A stretch of DNA of 64,000 bases. It comes from Barnesiella sp. Its GTDB lineage: Bacteria > Bacteroidota > Bacteroidia > Bacteroidales > Muribaculaceae. A program made the translations under genes and the position numbers. The notes under the pieces were generated by a model. That model was not told the origin of the DNA. It worked only from the letters and a program-made list of their open reading frames with translations, and did not search any database. The stretch is from the NCBI GenBank assembly GCA_014800945.1, contig JAAVFD010000012.1:68604-132603 (forward strand). The letters are read 5' to 3'. The stretch's first letter is position 1. Each line of letters opens with the position of its first letter. Below, one piece after another: positions 23-10,644 of this stretch.

Positions 23-1495
23 ATGGATTTAACCGGACTGCCACACGCGCTCGCTCACCTGCTGACCTACCACAAGGAAGAACCGCTCATTTTTTCAAGC
101 GGTTTGTTCTGGGTGCTGTTCGTCATCTTTATGCCCGCATACGCTTTTCTGCGTCGCAAAAAGACTCAGATGCTTGTTTTTGTAATAGCATTCAGCCTGT
201 ATTTCTATTACAAGTGCAGCGGGTGGTTTTTCCTGCTCATACTATCCACCTCGGCTATTGACTGGTTCATAAGCCGCAAGATGGTGCAGGTGGAGTCGTC
301 GGCGGGCAAAAAGTGGCTTGTCGCTCTTTCGGTTTTCATCTCCCTCTCCGTACTCGGATTTTTCAAGTACGCCAACTTCTTTCTGTGGAACTGGAATGCC
401 ATGGTCGAGGGTAATTTCCAACCCCTGAGCCTCATTCTGCCGGTAGGCATTTCATTCTACACATTCCAGTCCATCAGCTATATAGTGGATATCTACCGCA
501 AACGCATAGAGCCGGCGGAAACCTGGGGAGAATACCTTTTCTTCCTCTCCTTCTTCCCGGCTCTCGTTGCCGGCCCTATTGTCAGAGCCGAGTATTTCCT
601 GCCGCAGATAAAGGAGAACCGGCGCGCAAGCCATGACGAGATATTCGGAGGGCTGTGGCTTATACTCATCGGAGTGATTAAAAAAGCGGTTATTGCCGAT
701 TATATCGCTCAGTACAACGACCTTATATTCGACAATCCCGGCGGATACACCGGATTCGAGTCGCTCATGGGAATAATCGGTTACACCATGCAGATCTACT
801 GCGACTTCTCCGGCTATTCCGACATGGCTATAGGAATAGCTCTCATCATGGGATTCAAACTCAACATAAACTTCAATTACCCGTACAAATCACGGAGCCT
901 CACGGAGTTCTGGCACAGATGGCACATATCGCTCTCCACATGGCTTCGCGACTATCTTTACATCCCTCTGGGAGGCAACAGAAAGGGCACTTTCAGAACA
1001 TATCTGAACAATTTTCTTACCATGCTTATAGGCGGACTGTGGCACGGAGCCGCCTGGAAATTCGTGTTCTGGGGAGGAATGCACGGTGTGGGGCTAATTG
1101 TCAACAAATTATGCCGCCCGTTCACATCGCGCTACGATGGCAGGAAATGGTTTGAGATTTCAAGCACAGCCCTCACACTGCTTTTTGTGTCCTTTCTCTG
1201 GGTTTTCTTCCGTGCTGAAAGCTTCGAGGCGGCATGGACCATCTTAGGCTCGATTTTCACCAATTTTTCGCCTCAGTGCATAGTGCCGTTCATTAAATTC
1301 CGCACTCTATGGATTTTCCTGATGGCATTTATCATCACCATGCATTTTCAGCCGCAGAAGCTGCACGATGACATGGCTAACGTGTTCATCAACGCCCCGT
1401 GGATTCTGCGCCTGATAACATTTCTTATAGTGATTCAGCTGGTGGTTGAATTTTCGTCAGCCGATATCACGCCATTTATCTATTTTCAGTTCTGA
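23..1495 (+). CDS. MBOAT family O-acyltransferase (AlgI-like)
   Basis: 490-aa multi-TM ORF with MBOAT motifs (SFYTFQSISYIVDIYR, DFSGYSDMAIG, EFWHRWHISLSTWLRDYLYIPLGG, GLWHGAAWKF). Confidence 0.93.
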   Translation: MDLTGLPHALAHLLTYHKEEPLIFSSGLFWVLFVIFMPAYAFLRRKKTQMLVFVIAFSLYFYYKCSGWFFLLILSTSAIDWFISRKMVQVESSAGKKWLVALSVFISLSVLGFFKYANFFLWNWNAMVEGNFQPLSLILPVGISFYTFQSISYIVDIYRKRIEPAETWGEYLFFLSFFPALVAGPIVRAEYFLPQIKENRRASHDEIFGGLWLILIGVIKKAVIADYIAQYNDLIFDNPGGYTGFESLMGIIGYTMQIYCDFSGYSDMAIGIALIMGFKLNINFNYPYKSRSLTEFWHRWHISLSTWLRDYLYIPLGGNRKGTFRTYLNNFLTMLIGGLWHGAAWKFVFWGGMHGVGLIVNKLCRPFTSRYDGRKWFEISSTALTLLFVSFLWVFFRAESFEAAWTILGSIFTNFSPQCIVPFIKFRTLWIFLMAFIITMHFQPQKLHDDMANVFINAPWILRLITFLIVIQLVVEFSSADITPFIYFQF

Positions 1496-2736
1496 GTCTC
1501 GCTGCTCTCGGGTGTCGGGTCGATATCCTCGTCATATTTCTGGAAAAGGAAATCGTTGTAGGGAAAGCGCGTCAGATGCACCTGTTTAGCCTTCTCATAA
1601 ATCTTTGCCTTCAGTTCATCGATATTCAAGCCCTCCTTCGCGGAGATAAACACCGCGTCGTCACCTATCTTGTTCATCCACGAAGCCTTAAGCTCATCCA
1701 GCGAGTAATTCTCCCTCGTCTTGGGAGTAAGGTCATCTTCATCCTTCGGAGTGAATGAAAAAGCATCCACCTTATTGAAAACCATTATCATAGGCTTGTC
1801 GGCGCTTCCGCACACCTCAGACAAGGTTTTGTTCACCACCTCGATCTGCTCTTCGAAATTTGGATGCGAGATATCCACCACGTGAACAAGCACATCGGCG
1901 TCGCGAACCTCGTCAAGGGTAGATTTGAACGACTCAACCAGATGTGTAGGCAACTTGCGGATAAAACCTACCGTGTCGGTCAGCAGAAAAGGCAGATTAT
2001 CCACTATAACCTTGCGCACTGTAGTGTCAAGAGTGGCAAAGAGCTTGTTTTCAGCAAATACATCACTCTTGCTCAGCAGATTCATAAGCGTTGACTTGCC
2101 CACGTTGGTATAGCCCACAAGAGCCACCCTGGTGAGCTTGCCACGGTTCTTGCGCTGGATTGATTTCTGCCTGTCAATATCCTTCAGCTCAGCCTTCAGG
2201 CGCGAGATTTTGTCGAGGATAATACGGCGGTCTGTCTCAATCTGAGTCTCACCGGGGCCACGCATACCGATACCGCCACGCTGCCTCTCAAGGTGAGTCC
2301 ACATTCGGGTGAGTCGCGGCAGAAGGTACTGATACTGTGCCAGCTCCACCTGAGTCTTAGCATTGGCTGTCTGAGCTCTTCTCGCAAAAATATCCAGAAT
2401 AAGGCTTGTGCGGTCAAGAATTTTCACCTTAAGCTCACGCTCTATGTTAGCCACCTGCTTAGAGGTGAGGTCATCGTCAAAAATAGCCATACCGATATCG
2501 TTATCCTCGATATATTGGCGTATCTCCTCCAGCTTACCTTTGCCCACAAAAGTTCTTGAATCGGGTCCGTTAAGCTTTTGCAGGAATTTCTTCTCCGTCA
2601 CGGCACCGGCAGTATCGGCGAGAAAAGCCAGCTCGTCGAGATATTCGTTAGCCTTAGCCTCATTCTGCTGCGGAGTGATGAGTCCGACGAGCACAGCGCG
2701 CTCCGAACTCTCTTTATCTATAATCAGGTCTTTCAT
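1486..2736 (-). CDS. hflX: GTPase HflX
   Basis: GPGETQIETDRR, GYTNVGKSTLMN, DTVGFIRKLPTHLVESFKSTLDEV motifs of HflX; 416 aa. Confidence 0.96.
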   Translation of the reverse strand: MKDLIIDKESSERAVLVGLITPQQNEAKANEYLDELAFLADTAGAVTEKKFLQKLNGPDSRTFVGKGKLEEIRQYIEDNDIGMAIFDDDLTSKQVANIERELKVKILDRTSLILDIFARRAQTANAKTQVELAQYQYLLPRLTRMWTHLERQRGGIGMRGPGETQIETDRRIILDKISRLKAELKDIDRQKSIQRKNRGKLTRVALVGYTNVGKSTLMNLLSKSDVFAENKLFATLDTTVRKVIVDNLPFLLTDTVGFIRKLPTHLVESFKSTLDEVRDADVLVHVVDISHPNFEEQIEVVNKTLSEVCGSADKPMIMVFNKVDAFSFTPKDEDDLTPKTRENYSLDELKASWMNKIGDDAVFISAKEGLNIDELKAKIYEKAKQVHLTRFPYNDFLFQKYDEDIDPTPESSETQN

Positions 2737-2804: not shown

Positions 2805-3010
2805 ATCATGCGCCGGAGGTGCATGCAGAGAGTAGCCTCGCGGTTAAGCGAAGCGCAACCCGAGGATAAGGAGAAGCCCCTCCCCCCATCCCCCTCCCCG
2901 CAGCAGCGGGGAGGGGGGCGGAAATATGATGGCTTGGTATCCGCGGGGTGCGGGAGCTAACGCTCCCTTACCCACACGGCTACTTTCGGGACGCGCTCTG
3001 CCGGCGCGTC
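2805..3010 (+). repeat. ~205-bp hairpin-rich direct repeat, copy 1 (flanks Y1 transposase)
   Basis: ATCATGCGCCGGAGGTGCATG...GACGCGCTCTGCCGGCGCGTC recurs at 3541-3745 with roughly ten differences by eye. Confidence 0.95.
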
Positions 3011-3023
3011 TAGTATTTTAATA

Positions 3024-3485
3024 TTATTGTAATTCGTCAGGGAGCAAGTACTGCATATCTCTTATCCCTATTTTTGACAACCATTCAGCATATTCTTCAT
3101 GAAACGTCTTGACTCTATGGTGCTCGGTTTGATTTCTTATGTAATTAACAACTGAATTCAACTGACTTTTAGAATAGCTAAAGTACCCTCCACCCGACTG
3201 CCAGCCAAATCTTCCCACTGTCAGTCTATGAGAATTTATCCATTTTGATGATTCGGTTTTAACTCGCGTCATAATCTCCGTTTCACTAATTTTCCCCTGG
3301 GTACTATATAGCATATGGATATGGTCTTTGTACCCACCTACCTCAATAGGCATGACTCCATCAATTTTCTTTAGTGTATTTGCTATGACAGCATACAGCT
3401 TTTCTTTCCATGATTCCTCTATAAGCCCTAATCGGTATTTAACACCGAAAACAGTCATGATATATATTTGTGAAATAGACCTCAT
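3024..3485 (-). mobile_element. IS200-like / RAYT-like Y1 transposase (153 aa)
   Basis: HUH motif (KDHIHMLYS), C-terminal YIRNQTEHHRVKTFHEEYAEWL, FGWQSGGGYFSYSKSQ; typical single-domain Y1_Tnp. Confidence 0.9.
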
Positions 3486-3540
3486 ATATGCGAAATTATA
3501 TAAAATTCCCCTGATTTATGACAAGTTAAGTTCATTTTTT

Positions 3541-3745
3541 ATCATGCGCCGGAGGTGCATGCCGAGAGTAGCCTCGTGGTTAAGCGGAGCGCAACCCGAG
3601 GATAAGGAGAAGCCCCTCCCCCATCCCCCTCCCCGCAGCAGCGGGGAGGGGGCGGAGATAAGCATGGCTTGGTTTCCGCGGGGTGCGGGAGCTAACGCCC
3701 CCTTACCCACACGGCTACTTTCGGGACGCGCTCTGCCGGCGCGTC
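3541..3745 (+). repeat. ~205-bp hairpin-rich direct repeat, copy 2
   Basis: Same orientation and near-identical to 2805-3010. Confidence 0.95.
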
Positions 3746-3852: not shown

Positions 3853-6800
3853 TTAAAGTACCTTCACTTTAATGCCCTTTCCACCGGGGATACGGACAAT
3901 GTAGATGCCTCTGCGGAGTCCTTCAGCGTTGACTCTGCGACCGTTGATGTCAAACACCTGAGAGCCTTCCGGTGCAATGATATTGCCTCCTTCCACTCTC
4001 ACCTCATTGTCATCCCGGCTGTCCGAATCAATACCGTCGATTCCGGTAACGGCTCCAACAAATACGTATGTCTCGGCTACTTCTCCAACCGGCTTGTCGT
4101 TCTCCATGAGCACGGCGAGCACAGCAGAGCTTTCGGTGAGCTCAAACGGATTGTCATATCTGTTCCAGGTGTCAACCGAGAACGGAACTCCGAGCTTGGT
4201 GGTGTAGTAAATGGTATATGAACCCTGCGAGAGGTTATCCACCGGTGAGATCTTGACGAGCTTGGCACCGTTGCTGCCTTCGTCGAGCTCGAACTGAACT
4301 CTTCCGCTCACAGTGCTTGATGTGCCTCCAACAACCATAACCTGCAACATTGAAACAGCTCCTCTGGGCTTACCGCTCACCTGAACGCAAGCGTAGAGTT
4401 TGGCTCCCTGAGTAAATGTCAGCCTTGTGCTGTAACGGTTGGGGCAAGCCGAGTTATTGATACCGTAGTAAATGGTAGCATTCGGCTCGTCAGTAGTGAG
4501 TCTCACGGTTGTCTTGCCATATTCCGAGGTAACATTGAAGCTTACATCGCCCGCACGGTCAATCTTATTGAGTGTGATGACGATAGTAGCGCTCTCGGCA
4601 AACGCCGGCTCCTGACACTTCACCCTGATAACATCGCTCTTGTCGATGAGGATGGGGTGCTGGTAGGTGTACCATGTAGCGGTGCTGTTGTCCTCGCTGT
4701 GGCTGTCAATCATATAGTAGATAGTGGTGTTGGGACGGGTGCTCTTGAGTGTAACGGTTGTTGTGCCGTTGAAATTCACCATATAGTCACCGTTAGTGCT
4801 GTTCACCTGATTGCTGAGGGTGTTTGTAAAGTCAGCTGTAGGTCTTGGCGAACGTGTAACCCTGTCAGCCTGTATAGGCCAGAATTCCACCTCACCCTCT
4901 CTGCCGGTGGGGTCACCGAGCATCACGAAACCGGTGATATTGTAAGCGGAGCCGTCTCTGAGCTCTTCCGGAACCCTTGTGCCGTCTGAGCTGTAGCTGG
5001 CGGCGCTAACTTTGCCGAGTCTGCCAACATACATGGGATGGTTCTGACCGGTCTGTCTGTCCTGAATGTACCACAGATCCTCGCCATCGTTGGTCTGAAC
5101 CTTACCATCTGTCAAAGTCACGTTCATGAGAGTGACAAGACGGCGGGCATTGAGCAGAGACAGAGAGTTGAGAGTGTCCGGTGCAGCGTGGAACTGATCC
5201 GCTTCCGGAGTCATCTTATCATCCTCCCAGAGCGGGCTGGTAATCTTGTCGAAGGTTGATATGTGACCTGTAGCCACAGCTATGCGGTTTGAATGAGTAT
5301 CCTCCATATATCCCACGGTGAAGTCTCTGACATATCTACCTGCCGTGAGTTCGGTATCATCCCAACCATCATTATTGAACACCGGCAGGAAGTAGCCCAT
5401 CGGTCCGGCAAGGAACATATACTTACCACCTGTAGCAATAACCTTGAGGTTTGTGGATAGCTTGTAGTACCTGCCCTCTCTCGCCTGGTCGAGGAACTGG
5501 AATATATACTGGAGCTCGGTGCTGTTTCTCACAAAGATTCGGCTCACGGTAGCACTCGGCTTGTAACCCGGCTTGTAGGCGTAAGCCTTGACAGTGATAC
5601 GGTCACTGTTAGCCGGCAGCGTGGGGCTGAAAGTTTCACCGGTGAATGAGAGTCGGTTTGCATTTGACGAATCCATATTCTTCGGGTCAACGCCGTTGAT
5701 TGAATAGAACACCGAAGCGCCATCCTCAGGCTCGATATTCACTTCGAGGTTGTTGACAAAGTACTGCAGTTCGGTATCTTTGTTTGTAGCCTCGGTGCAG
5801 TAGAGTTTCGGAGCGGCAACCTGACCTTTGTTGGTCGAGAAGTCAATCATCGCGATAGCATAGGATTCATCACGATCTTTCTCGTTTTTAAGGAATATAC
5901 CTTTAATATTATACAGCTCGTCAGGCTCATCCGGTTCGTAGAAGTTATCCCATCCGTTATAGCACTCCTCGAAGATGTCGAATGCGAGAGCAATATTGCC
6001 TTCACCGAGTACGAGGAAGTATTCATTATCCTTCTTCTCGATTTTCACATTCTTGATATCAAGATAGCGCATGCGCTGGTTCTCTCCAAGAACAATGTTT
6101 TTATAATAACCGCTGTAGTTGTCATTATCGGGATCCGGGTACCATGAATCATCACTATATCCGACTTCAATAGGTCTTAGCGCGAGCTGGAAGTCCGGAT
6201 TAGTGCTGTAGATAGAGTCGATAAAGTGGACAGTGCGGGCAAATCCGGTACATTCGCTGATAAGATTACCTCTACGGCTCAGTGCGGGAATCAGGGCGAA
6301 GTTATTGATTATGTCGCCTTGACGCAGCATACGCACTGAATCCGGCTCACCGGCAACAGGCACGGGGGGATTGACCCACTTGTTTTCGTTGTGCACAAGG
6401 ATATAGTTAGCGGAGTGGAACTTGCCGTCCGCATCTGTGGGTTCAAGGTCTCGGATATACAGCCACTCCTCAGTAGCCTCGATAACAATAGCCTTAGACT
6501 GATTGCTGAACTGGTGATAGTGATTTCCGTCGAAGCTTGCACGGGACTGATTTTCGGAAATCGATTCCGGCAGGTTCTTATCATTGAGGTACATCTCCTT
6601 GAACTGGGCGATGCTATTCACCACTCCATTTTTTGCGTCAAGTTCGTGCCATTCAATTTCAATGGTAGCCGGCTCGATGGACCAGAGACCCTCCTCGCTC
6701 CTTGCATATACCCAAAGGTGGCACTGACGATTGTTGTTTTTGTCCAGCTTGTAATCCGCCTTCTTAAGAGTGAATGTGGGCACACCCTTAACCAAGTCGA

Positions 6801-9800
6801 TTTTTTTGAGTCCGACACCAATAGCATTTTCAAGCTGAGCATCATTGAAGGTATTTATATTCTCCAAATCCGACCAGTAGTAAGTCATGCCATGCTGGCG
6901 GATATTTCCGATAGTTATGTTCAGCTCGGCGGAGATAGCGTCAAGCTCGCCGTCGGTAATGGGGTTCGGAGCGAAGAGCTCTGGAGTGTCGGGACACTCA
7001 ATCGGCACCTCGCAGGGGAGCAGAGCAAGAGAGTTAGAAGCCTGACCCACATAGCAGGTTAAGGCATAGACATTGCCATCCTCAAGCGCACTAATAGCAT
7101 CTTCAACCTCTTTTTCGTTGTCAAGCTTCAGTCGGGTAAAGATTGTATATTCCGTGCCGTCGATACCTCTCAGACGTGAGCTACCGGCAACTTTTTCAAG
7201 TCCGCGCATCCTTACCTTCTTATTGAAGGCTGCTTCGGTAACTTTGGTTGAATCGGGGCAGAAGTTTACTATAGCTTCACCATAGAACCCGCCCTCGTAT
7301 GCCTCGGGAAGATAATTGATGAAGCTCTCCTCCTTGGTGGGAGTGATGAGAATTTCCGGCATAAGACCCTTACCGCCGACAAAGCTTCTGTAAGCCACTC
7401 GACCAATAATATCTCCGCTATTGATAATGCAATCCTTGCCGGGGGTCTTGGATCTGTAAGTCTCAAATACGGCAGGCTCGGTAGCCGAGTTAATAACGAG
7501 CTTTATAGCATCATTGTTACAGTTCTCGAGATATACGTAATAGGTATTTTTCCCATTCTCAAGAGCGGCATCGGTATCATACACGCCAACTACTCTCATC
7601 AACGGATTAGCGTATGCTCCGTATAGCGCAACGAGTCCGTTCTGGTCATAGCCGTTTGCAGGGGCAAGGTAACCGTCGAGATAATAATCGGTGGTAATAA
7701 TCGGCTCTACATCGACAATGGACCATGAGCTTTCCTGACCTGTCGAGCTATTTACGGATTGCACAAAGAGTCGTCCGGCATAAGGAGTGTCACCGTTTGC
7801 ACCTACTCCGTTTCTACCCAAAGTAATTATACAGGACTTACCCGGGGCATAGGTCCACTCAGAGGTCTGCACAGTATTTCCAACTTCAATACTCTCCATC
7901 AAATAATATTTACCTACAGAAATAGAGGGTTCGAGTCCCGGTTCATCTGACCCTTCGTAGGCATACCGAATTTTAGTGCCTTCGGGTGTATCCTCCGGAA
8001 GGGTAATCTGTATCATAGCCTCTTTAGCGTAAGACATTCTGGGGATACCGCCATTTGTCCAGGTGTAGTTCTCACCCTTAGGTTTGGACAGTGCAGGTCC
8101 GGCAAGCGGAGTGCGGGTAATAGCGATAGTTACAATATCGCTGTAGAATTTCTCATCCCCAACCTGAGTGTAAGCACGGAGGTGGAGGTACTTATCTCCT
8201 CCTGAAATGTTTAGTCCGCCCGAGTTAGGACCTGCTTTGCCATTGATATCAGTACCGTAAACAAACCATCCGTTTTGAGGGCCGAAATAGCCGTCCGGAT
8301 TATTGTCAGGGTCGTTGTATTCATTCGCCGTGCAACCCACATTAACAGTCGCATTCTTGAATTGCTGGTTAATCTCAAAAGTCTCGTCCGGCGGTGTCAT
8401 GAAGTTAGTGATCGCATATTCAAGTCCGCCAACGGGCTCTACTTCCGGATCAATTTCTTTACCAACCGAAACCAATGCAGTAGAGTAGGCATCCTTAAGG
8501 TCAAGAACGATTGCATTTACATCCACCTCAACCGATAGATTATACTGGTTCTGATTATCCAGACTAATCCAACCGGTTTTGGGAATAGACCTATGGGGTA
8601 TAGATGCGTCTATTATCGTGTTGTATTCAAACGATTTTGCATAGCGCAACACCTGCGGCCTCGGCGGTGCAGCCGGCTGCTCACGCTTACAGTTGATGGT
8701 CAGCTTATTTCCGAAATTCCCATCCTTATCCACACCGCAGATATACACCGGAGTCTCCTGATTCCATACAGCATTTTCGGGGAGTTCAATGCCTACAGTG
8801 GGATCGTATTCACGCCAGTTTGACTCCGGAATATTAGCAGCTGTGACATAAATCATTTTCACCGTGCCGGCAGGTTGCTTGAAACATTTAAGCACTGCCG
8901 GGGCATTGTAATAATTATAAGAGTATGTATTTACTCCGGTTTCTGTCAATGTTCCATCTGACGGAGCGGCAGACATATCGATTGTAGGTGCATCTATAGG
9001 CGCATCCCAAACAATGCCGAGTTTGTTGAGATATAGAGCTGTTGAGACCGTTCCATCTGAATTATTTACTCTATCTAATATATTCGAAGCTGCTGTGAAG
9101 GTCACAGATTCAACCGGAACATTCAGCTCGTATGTCCAGCAATTATCAGTGGCGTCAAACACCCAGGTTCCGGCTTCATTTACTGCTGAAAATAAATCGT
9201 TTATATCTTCTTTACCTGTGAATGCAGATAGCGAGTAGGGCCCAGTATCATGTTCAGATCCATTTCTTGTTTTGCCGAACTTAACCTTTTTGATTAGCCT
9301 CCACATATTAGTGGCAGAGATCTTCACTCTGACACCCGGACGAAAGGTTGCGTCAAAATAAGCTGAGGTAGCCAACCGTAAACCATTGAATGCTCCATTA
9401 TAATTGTGATTGGTGCCTGAGGTGGTTGGGATTCCAAAACGTAGAGAGTATCCGGCATTAGAAGTACTCCTCAACTCAGGGTCAAATTCCACATTGAACC
9501 CAACACTTCCATCATTACTCGAAACCATAAATTTCCCTATAGCACCATAGCTTGTGTACGCATTAGTACCCTGGGAAGTAGTATAAAAATAAGGGAAATC
9601 CTGCTCAGTACTTGCTGAAGTAGCTGTTTGGCTACTACCAAAAGTGAACCGAGCCTTGTAGCGAGTTTTAACCGGGGATTCTTCCCCTTCTTTTTTGGAA
9701 TACACTCCGGATTCCGAAGTCAATGTCACAGCGTTATTGCTATTACCTTCCGGAATCCAAAAGCCGAGATACACTTCCTCATCAAGCGCCGAAATGTTTG

Positions 9801-9846
9801 GCGCGAACAGAAGAAGTGACATTAAAAAAAGTAAAATTTTCTTCAT
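3853..9846 (-). CDS. Very large secreted protein with chitobiase/CHB_HEX_C-like repeats and a C-terminal T9SS-type-A-like sorting tail
   Basis: ORF 3853..9984; likely true start is the internal MKKILLFLMSLLLFAPNISA signal peptide (ATG at 9846). Recurrent xxTTIYYxID / ATIYYGINN segments; C-term EGSQVFDINGRRVNAEGLRRGIYIVRIPGGKGIKVKVL. Confidence 0.85.
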   Translation of the reverse strand: MKKILLFLMSLLLFAPNISALDEEVYLGFWIPEGNSNNAVTLTSESGVYSKKEGEESPVKTRYKARFTFGSSQTATSASTEQDFPYFYTTSQGTNAYTSYGAIGKFMVSSNDGSVGFNVEFDPELRSTSNAGYSLRFGIPTTSGTNHNYNGAFNGLRLATSAYFDATFRPGVRVKISATNMWRLIKKVKFGKTRNGSEHDTGPYSLSAFTGKEDINDLFSAVNEAGTWVFDATDNCWTYELNVPVESVTFTAASNILDRVNNSDGTVSTALYLNKLGIVWDAPIDAPTIDMSAAPSDGTLTETGVNTYSYNYYNAPAVLKCFKQPAGTVKMIYVTAANIPESNWREYDPTVGIELPENAVWNQETPVYICGVDKDGNFGNKLTINCKREQPAAPPRPQVLRYAKSFEYNTIIDASIPHRSIPKTGWISLDNQNQYNLSVEVDVNAIVLDLKDAYSTALVSVGKEIDPEVEPVGGLEYAITNFMTPPDETFEINQQFKNATVNVGCTANEYNDPDNNPDGYFGPQNGWFVYGTDINGKAGPNSGGLNISGGDKYLHLRAYTQVGDEKFYSDIVTIAITRTPLAGPALSKPKGENYTWTNGGIPRMSYAKEAMIQITLPEDTPEGTKIRYAYEGSDEPGLEPSISVGKYYLMESIEVGNTVQTSEWTYAPGKSCIITLGRNGVGANGDTPYAGRLFVQSVNSSTGQESSWSIVDVEPIITTDYYLDGYLAPANGYDQNGLVALYGAYANPLMRVVGVYDTDAALENGKNTYYVYLENCNNDAIKLVINSATEPAVFETYRSKTPGKDCIINSGDIIGRVAYRSFVGGKGLMPEILITPTKEESFINYLPEAYEGGFYGEAIVNFCPDSTKVTEAAFNKKVRMRGLEKVAGSSRLRGIDGTEYTIFTRLKLDNEKEVEDAISALEDGNVYALTCYVGQASNSLALLPCEVPIECPDTPELFAPNPITDGELDAISAELNITIGNIRQHGMTYYWSDLENINTFNDAQLENAIGVGLKKIDLVKGVPTFTLKKADYKLDKNNNRQCHLWVYARSEEGLWSIEPATIEIEWHELDAKNGVVNSIAQFKEMYLNDKNLPESISENQSRASFDGNHYHQFSNQSKAIVIEATEEWLYIRDLEPTDADGKFHSANYILVHNENKWVNPPVPVAGEPDSVRMLRQGDIINNFALIPALSRRGNLISECTGFARTVHFIDSIYSTNPDFQLALRPIEVGYSDDSWYPDPDNDNYSGYYKNIVLGENQRMRYLDIKNVKIEKKDNEYFLVLGEGNIALAFDIFEECYNGWDNFYEPDEPDELYNIKGIFLKNEKDRDESYAIAMIDFSTNKGQVAAPKLYCTEATNKDTELQYFVNNLEVNIEPEDGASVFYSINGVDPKNMDSSNANRLSFTGETFSPTLPANSDRITVKAYAYKPGYKPSATVSRIFVRNSTELQYIFQFLDQAREGRYYKLSTNLKVIATGGKYMFLAGPMGYFLPVFNNDGWDDTELTAGRYVRDFTVGYMEDTHSNRIAVATGHISTFDKITSPLWEDDKMTPEADQFHAAPDTLNSLSLLNARRLVTLMNVTLTDGKVQTNDGEDLWYIQDRQTGQNHPMYVGRLGKVSAASYSSDGTRVPEELRDGSAYNITGFVMLGDPTGREGEVEFWPIQADRVTRSPRPTADFTNTLSNQVNSTNGDYMVNFNGTTTVTLKSTRPNTTIYYMIDSHSEDNSTATWYTYQHPILIDKSDVIRVKCQEPAFAESATIVITLNKIDRAGDVSFNVTSEYGKTTVRLTTDEPNATIYYGINNSACPNRYSTRLTFTQGAKLYACVQVSGKPRGAVSMLQVMVVGGTSSTVSGRVQFELDEGSNGAKLVKISPVDNLSQGSYTIYYTTKLGVPFSVDTWNRYDNPFELTESSAVLAVLMENDKPVGEVAETYVFVGAVTGIDGIDSDSRDDNEVRVEGGNIIAPEGSQVFDINGRRVNAEGLRRGIYIVRIPGGKGIKVKVL

Positions 9847-9905
9847 ACTTTTTCCTGCATAAAAGTTATTATTTATTTTGTTGATTTTCTGATTGTTATT
9901 TACCT

Positions 9906-9964
9906 CGGAAGGGCTATCTGGCTCACTGCCGCCTTGTGCCCGCCTGCAGCGGGCAACGCTTCCG
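9906..9964 (-). promoter_or_regulatory. Foldable 5' leader of the large secreted-protein gene
   Basis: Outer stem CGGAAG (9906-9911) / CTTCCG (9959-9964) enclosing hairpin GCCCGC-CTGCA-GCGGGC (9938-9954), between a -7 box and the likely start codon. Confidence 0.45.
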
Positions 9965-10024
9965 GCTAACGGTAACTGTTTCATGTACTTATCCTTGCAA
10001 GATTAGTTATTAAATAGATTGTGT

Positions 10025-10033: not shown

Positions 10034-10175
10034 GTTATTTTTTTGTAAGTAAATAACGTATGCAACAGTATTTTATTGTGTTTTTTTTGTTCAACACCCC
10101 CCGATGGGGGGGGAAGGAGATGGCATAATCGGAAGATTCGGAATTTTCCGAAGATTCCGAGAAATCGGAGGTAGC

Positions 10176-10224
10176 TGACCGCGTAGCGGTCGGGCGCCGC
10201 ATGGCGCGTTTCGGAGGATTCGGA
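10176..10224 (+). repeat. 49-bp palindrome-bearing direct repeat, copy 1
   Basis: TGACCGCGTAGCGGTCGGGCGCCGCATGGCGCGTTTCGGAGGATTCGGA, identical to 10545-10593. Confidence 0.97.
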
Positions 10225-10308
10225 GATTTCGGAAGATGACGAGAGGGGTGCGCATCGGGGGGGATATGTCCCGGAGGGTGCCGAGGGCGGGGAGCAAAGG
10301 AGCTATGT

Positions 10309-10359
10309 TGTCCCGGAGGGACATAACTTGGTTAACCGGGTACATTCATGTGCCCGGGT
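10309..10359 (+). repeat. Left arm of ~51-bp inverted repeat
   Basis: TGTCCCGGAGGGACA...GTTAACCGGGTACATTCATGTGCCCGGGT; reverse complement matches 10451-10502 with few differences. Confidence 0.93.
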
Positions 10360-10377
10360 TCGGAAACGACTGACTAT

Positions 10378-10394
10378 CAACCCCGGAGGGGTTG
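10378..10394. repeat. Perfect palindrome CAACCCC-GGA-GGGGTTG
   Basis: Read directly; lies in the spacer of the large inverted repeat. Confidence 0.9.
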
Positions 10395-10450
10395 GACTCT
10401 GAAGATGCATGGTTCAACACCTCCGGCGTTGCTTTTTTACCGGTATCCCT

Positions 10451-10502
10451 ATCCGGGCACATAAATGTACCCGGTTAACAAAATTACTGTCCCTCCGGGA
10501 CA
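10451..10502 (-). repeat. Right arm of ~51-bp inverted repeat
   Basis: Reverse complement of 10309-10359 allowing one indel and a few substitutions. Confidence 0.93.
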
Positions 10503-10544
10503 TTACCCTGCGTCTGCAAAGTTAGCAAAAAACAATCAAAATCA

Positions 10545-10593
10545 TGACCGCGTAGCGGTCGGGCGCCGCATGGCGCGTTTCGGAGGATTCGGA
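10545..10593 (+). repeat. 49-bp palindrome-bearing direct repeat, copy 2
   Basis: Identical to 10176-10224. Confidence 0.97.
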
Positions 10594-10644
10594 ATTTTCG
10601 GAAGATTCGGAAAAATCCGAAAAATCGGAGAGGGAGAGGGGGAA

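Follow-up and report, generated by a model that had tools for sequence, protein, structure and literature searches.

A Y1 transposase gene between two REP-like dimers

Here, we describe a locus in an uncultured gut bacterium of the Muribaculaceae that is probably REPtron-like: an IS200-type Y1 enzyme whose gene lies between two copies of a non-autonomous 205-bp dimer, its presumed cognate, on which the enzyme would act in trans. The locus lies at positions 2805-3745 of the window, by which we mean the whole 64,000-nucleotide stretch of DNA that was analysed. The source assembly comprises 2.34 Mb in 38 contigs and is 82% complete, and its named relatives are Muribaculaceae/Bacteroidales MAGs. 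The nearest filed family of the enzyme, TnpA_Y1 subclass 1.2, formerly had neither a known substrate nor a recognised reason for persisting; a cognate REP-like element would supply one, and the locus adds a candidate for that substrate. Among the papers covered by our literature search, none reports REPs for subclass 1.2 or for Muribaculaceae.

The block is bordered by hflX (1486-2736, minus strand) on one side and by a 2043-residue open reading frame (3853-9984, minus strand) on the other. Within it, the Y1 (HUH single-tyrosine) transposase gene encodes 153 amino acids on the minus strand (3024-3485; PF01797, E=8.5e-18, with supporting motifs and AlphaFold fold). Unit A (2805-3010, 206 bp, plus strand), downstream of the gene, lies 13 bp from its 3' side, and unit B (3541-3745, 205 bp, plus strand), upstream, lies 55 bp from its 5' side. 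The preliminary description had placed a minus-strand Y1 reading frame between two same-orientation repeats of about 205 bp, and its positions and gaps are borne out; the roughly ten differences that it had estimated between the repeats resolve on alignment into 7 mismatches and 3 gap columns, with 197 of 207 columns identical. Short repeats of the TCGGAA/TTCCGA type adjoin the genome's REP-like units, in the window at 2783-2800 and elsewhere at L003 (1440-1500 and 1700-1740), L004, L005 and L008 (1525-1570); these may mark a preferred target or form a repeat family of their own.

Anatomy of the 205-bp unit

The preliminary description missed that both repeats are themselves composite, consisting of two inverted, GTAG-tagged hairpin units. 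Each repeat begins with a small hairpin, followed after about 8 nt by GTAG and a bulged hairpin, then by a spacer containing a perfect G+C-rich hairpin, and finally by the same elements inverted. In unit A, which was delimited by repeat alignment and by the Y1-less copy on contig C21 (L003), the left outer hairpin (ATGCGCC gga GGTGCAT; 2808-2824, plus strand) was recognised from its sequence and from the fold of its unit B homologue. The left REP-like element (2832-2865, plus strand) joins GTAG at 2832-2835 to CCTCGCGGTT-AA-GCGAAGC-GC-AACCCGAGG, and the right one (2941-2983, minus strand) joins GTAG at 2983-2980 to CCGTGTGGGT-AA-GGGAGCGTTAGCTCCC-GC-ACCCCGCGG, both defined by sequence comparison. 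An inverted-repeat search located the central perfect hairpin between them (CCCCCTCCCCGC agca GCGGGGAGGGGG; 2890-2917), and a motif search the right outer hairpin (GACGCGC..GCGCGTC; 2990-3010, minus strand).

Unit B, delimited by repeat alignment, repeats this plan. Its outer small hairpins lie at 3544-3560 (plus strand) and 3725-3745 (minus strand), both supported by fold and motif search, and its central perfect hairpin at 3625-3652, supported by repeat search and fold. Sequence comparison again defines the two REP-like elements, each a GTAG with a bulged hairpin: one at 3568-3601 on the plus strand (tag at 3568-3571), the other at 3676-3718 on the minus strand (tag at 3718-3715). Across both repeats, the main left hairpin reads CCTCGyGGTT-AA-GCGrAGC-GC-AACCCGAGG and the main right hairpin CCGTGTGGGT-AA-GGGrGCGTTAGCTCCC-GC-ACCCCGCGG. 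The outer small hairpins mark the ends of the element, as comparison with the solo copy L003 indicates.

All four units of the window, with tagged hairpins at 2832, 2983, 3568 and 3718 flanking the Y1 gene within 1 kb, thus combine GTAG with a GC-rich hairpin carrying an AA/GC (2x2) internal mismatch. In E. coli REPs, GTAG and a conserved AA-GC bulge are both required for cleavage (PMC8266576), and the window's units have both. Folding of the 205-nt unit is far more stable than that of its shuffles, as DNA (z=-5.9) and as RNA (z=-8.6), with 0 of 200 shuffles as good; each end-hairpin motif occurs twice in the window against 0-0.17 expected. An Rfam search of the repeats returned nothing over threshold, its one weak match falling well under the gathering score.

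The enzyme belongs to TnpA_Y1 subclass 1.2

The published groupings of Y1 enzymes (PMC6006769) provide the frame for classifying the protein. Its motifs, DHIH, WQ and YIRNQTEHH (Y---Q--HH), its length of about 150 residues and its origin in Bacteroidetes agree with the entry for subclass 1.2 (DH[IV]H, WQ, Y---Q--HH, low copy; Quentin et al. 2018, Table 1), for which neither REPs nor IS ends are listed (PMC6006769). The class 2 motif Y---NP is absent from the protein, and all relatives have Y---Q. A profile of 59 relatives searched against the PDB matched IS608, ISDra2 and other IS200-type structures only, and did not recover the TnpA_REP structure 4ER8 even at E<=10. The AlphaFold model (pLDDT 95.3) gives a concordant picture in Foldseek, with IS608 the best match (E=1e-7), ISDra2 also among the best, and 4ER8 last among the Y1 folds (E=3.5e-5). 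By motifs, profile search and fold search, the protein is therefore a subclass 1.2 TnpA_Y1. Its WQ pair (W95-Q96) is also present in the REP-associated class 2 subclasses, where W94/Q95 fall within the region that contacts GTAG.

Membership in the RAYT/TnpA_REP family was considered and is ruled out by the Y---Q--HH motif together with the IS200/IS605-nearest profile and fold matches: the class 2 features were tested and the protein lacks them, which puts it outside the RAYT family as defined. The label of RAYT/REP-like unit in the preliminary description consequently survives in its second half, through the GTAG tag, bulged hairpin, inverted dimer, solo copies and recurrence, but not in its first, since the protein is class 1.

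The genome as a whole holds three Y1_Tnp matches, all class 1, with one copy of the window's Y1 gene; the same search found no class 2 RAYT. A second Y1 subfamily is present as two near-identical copies at contig ends (L009, 204-1929, on contig C13, and L011 on C31); one copy is frameshifted or shortened, and one adjoins a reading frame resembling an IS110-type transposase.

Tagged hairpins recur beside related Y1 genes

Hairpins tagged with [GA]TAG adjoin the Y1 gene in 11 of 13 loci whose enzymes are at least 45% identical, one of the 11 (in G156) counted by eye, and they share the same plan while differing in their stems. The tag is GTAG in G206, G047, G220, G189 and the window, and ATAG in G012 (two loci), G014, G015 and G311; in one of the two untagged loci (G343) the contig stops 104 bp past the gene. 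Counted from the stem foot, pairs 3, 4, 5 and 8 have changed on both sides between species, which is the mark of compensatory change. We counted pairs in this way because a MAFFT alignment of whole units misplaced the outer hairpin. The hairpin finder applied to relatives tolerates a one-base bulge, which the window's own units require. Hairpins of these relatives carry an AA/GC or GA/GA mismatch within the stem, except for the shortest, which have none. Around the relative in G156 (L062), direct repeats with a GTAG-type hairpin (1411-1495 and 2012-2095) flank the Y1 gene, reaching its 5' side.

The association does not depend on specifying the tag beforehand. In a tag-free test of 65 subclass 1.2 Y1 genes, NTAG outranked every other trinucleotide on the 5' side of hairpin feet (24 loci), and recurring NTAG hairpins were found at 15 of the 65 loci, against 7 for the next-best trinucleotide. 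Recurring tagged hairpins were found at none of 28 control hflX loci; within one set of 38 loci they occurred at 9 near the Y1 gene versus none at 900-1500 bp (Fisher p=0.002-0.004 for the contrast between near-gene and control positions). Subclass 1.2 genes outside Bacteroidales show no NTAG excess (4 of 35, tied with TTT, TAA and AAT), in keeping with the absence of REPs from the subclass 1.2 entry of Quentin et al. (PMC6006769). A phylum-wide association was accordingly dropped, the tag not being enriched in Pedobacter, Algoriphagus and others outside the order.

In the tree, the window's Y1 clade comprises 10 rows (support 99/85), 9 of them with tagged hairpins, and its genes are present as one copy in most genomes. 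Over the tree as a whole, 12 changes account for the distribution of tagged hairpins, which is clustered (0 of 500 shuffles required so few). Distances between Y1 proteins correlate with distances between their REPs too weakly to carry weight (rho 0.36; 94 of 5000 permutations as high).

Copies away from the gene and history of the site

The source genome carries a complete solo unit with no Y1 gene (C21:3304-3502, L003), a shortened one (C12:24114-24160) and a third that breaks off where its contig ends (C17:1-49), for a total of 3 complete dimers and 2 partial ones. The tag pattern has 8 hits in this genome (G000) for one gene, and 0-2 hits in most of 397 family genomes, with high counts in G068 (34), G010 (27), G376 (23), G050 (19), G446 (15), G047 (13) and G009 (13). 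A reversed-pattern control gave 0-3 in these seven genomes, and 0-2 in G000, G047, G010 and G068. Copy number thus stays well short of the more than 100 per genome of a high-copy REP family, at 8 here and at most 34 in relatives, in assemblies that are incomplete; the low figure for the source genome is tempered by its 82% completeness and by the break of contig C17 inside a unit. In G047, five tagged units in tandem surround the Y1 gene on both sides and others lie singly on other contigs, and in G446 and G068 a subclass 1.2 Y1 gene sits amid tag-pattern units.

The preliminary description had rested its reading on two expectations, that the unit would recur in the genome and that it would keep company with a related Y1 gene. 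The first is secured by the solo and partial copies and by the further copies in relatives, and the proposed comparison of solo copies with gene copies comes out in its favour, units outnumbering the single Y1 gene. The second is partly contradicted: the sister genome G010 has many units, but its nearest Y1 is only 41% identical and none belongs to the window's clade, in an assembly that is 78% complete. G050 (19 hits) and G246 (8 hits) likewise have the tag pattern and no Y1_Tnp match. The repeats in these last two genomes may be orphaned, may have a gene that is missing from the data, or may be served by another enzyme.

The site has a partial counterpart in two sister genomes, G019 (HflX 99% identical) and G001 (95%). 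Upstream of hflX their sequence follows that of the window until about 22 bp short of unit A, where it diverges; neither has a unit or a Y1 gene there, and their contigs end soon afterwards. The solo unit beside cca is missing in four sisters, whose neighbouring DNA also differs. The empty site that the preliminary description had proposed to look for at 2805-3745 is seen from one side, the block being absent in G019 and G001, but a clean two-sided empty site was not found among the sister genomes at either hflX or cca.

A probable REPtron-like system built on an IS200-type enzyme

Three other explanations of the locus deserve weighing. That an ordinary IS200-type insertion sequence landed in a pre-existing REP cluster, with the repeats belonging to an unrelated system, is unlikely. 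Subclass 1.2 does lie near IS200, insertion of IS elements into REPs is on record (PMC1525189), and such repeats exist apart from any close Y1 in G010, G050 and G246; yet with only 13 bp from the Y1 stop codon to unit A, separate IS200-type ends would not fit, and 11 of the 13 related loci, spread over different genomes, show the same plan with different stems. An insertion sequence of this type would be expected in multiple near-identical copies with its own subterminal hairpin ends, whereas we find one copy and a 13-bp gap, a single clade member in most genomes, and no class 2 RAYT in the source genome that might own the repeats.

It is quite unlikely that the whole 2805-3745 block is instead one mobile unit, its repeats being unusually large IS ends and the solo copies leftovers or MITE-like derivatives. 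Direct repeats do bracket the gene, as a flanking direct repeat also does in G156 up to the 5' side of its Y1, and the divergence of G019 and G001 about 22 bp before unit A leaves them without the block; against this, no second copy of the block was found in its own or the other genomes searched, and G047 arranges five tandem units around its gene, with further single units elsewhere. Very improbable is a role of the repeats merely as terminators or RNA-stability hairpins duplicated by recombination beside an incidental Y1 gene. Their great stability, their intergenic position and the one weak Rfam match would suit such a role, but the conservation of the 5' tag together with a 2x2 mismatch, an enrichment confined to the neighbourhood of Y1 genes (0 of 38 farther out in the same loci) and compensatory changes across species all argue against it.

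We therefore favor the REPtron-like reading: the locus would work like a REPtron, with an enzyme that the definition of the RAYT family does not cover. As in the E. coli REPtron (TnpA_REP/RAYT of Quentin subclass 2.2, with y/z REPs and BIMEs), GTAG stands directly 5' of a long AA/GC-mismatched hairpin, inverted REP dimers flank one Y1 gene, intergenic copies occur elsewhere and gene copy number is low. Unlike the E. coli system, the window's protein is class 1 and matches IS200/IS605 structures, its units carry an extra small hairpin outside each tag and are far fewer, and the tag in relatives can be ATAG or TTAG. The inverted doublets resemble REPINs/BIMEs in behaving as non-autonomous repeats, but differ in their longer spacer with its own perfect hairpin, their outer small hairpins and their few copies in the genome. 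IS200/IS605 elements such as IS608 and ISDra2 provide the nearest sequence and fold matches and share with the locus the principle of a tetranucleotide guide 5' of a hairpin; unlike them, the locus has a reading frame without separate subterminal ends and at low copy, and its units occur without the gene. Within subclass 1.2 as listed (PMC6006769), which has no REP association, the many Bacteroidales members flanked by tagged hairpins stand apart.

The analysis establishes the anatomy of the units, their copies away from the gene, their recurrence beside related Y1 genes, the compensatory stem changes and the class of the protein; binding, cleavage, mobilisation in trans and any benefit to the host we infer. 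In the mechanism we propose, the enzyme would act in trans on DNA in single-stranded form, such as the lagging-strand template, with [G/A]TAG serving as guide, the bulged hairpin as recognition structure and Tyr115 mediating cutting and rejoining. Dimers would in this way be spread or rearranged between genes, and the Y1 gene itself would stay put at low copy. A cognate element puts cleavage within reach of tests on short oligonucleotides. We give an even chance to a history in which single-strand transposases gave rise to REP-type systems on at least two occasions. One, in class 2, would have yielded the classical RAYTs. The other, whether independent or linked to the first through a far more ancient shared ancestor, would have taken place in the IS200-like subclass 1.2 of Bacteroidales, reaching the same GTAG guide and AA/GC bulge and adding an outer hairpin. 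The locus provides a second example in which to ask how transposases turn into resident REP enzymes and why hosts retain them.

The window also contains a second mosaic repeat block, at 10129-10612. Direct copies of TGACCGCGTAGCGGTCGGGCGCCGCATGGCGCGTTTCGGAGGATTCGGA lie about 370 bp apart there, and between them are the inverted pairs TGTCCCGGAGGGACA/TGTCCCTCCGGGACA and GTTAACCGGGTACATT/AATGTACCCGGTTAAC.
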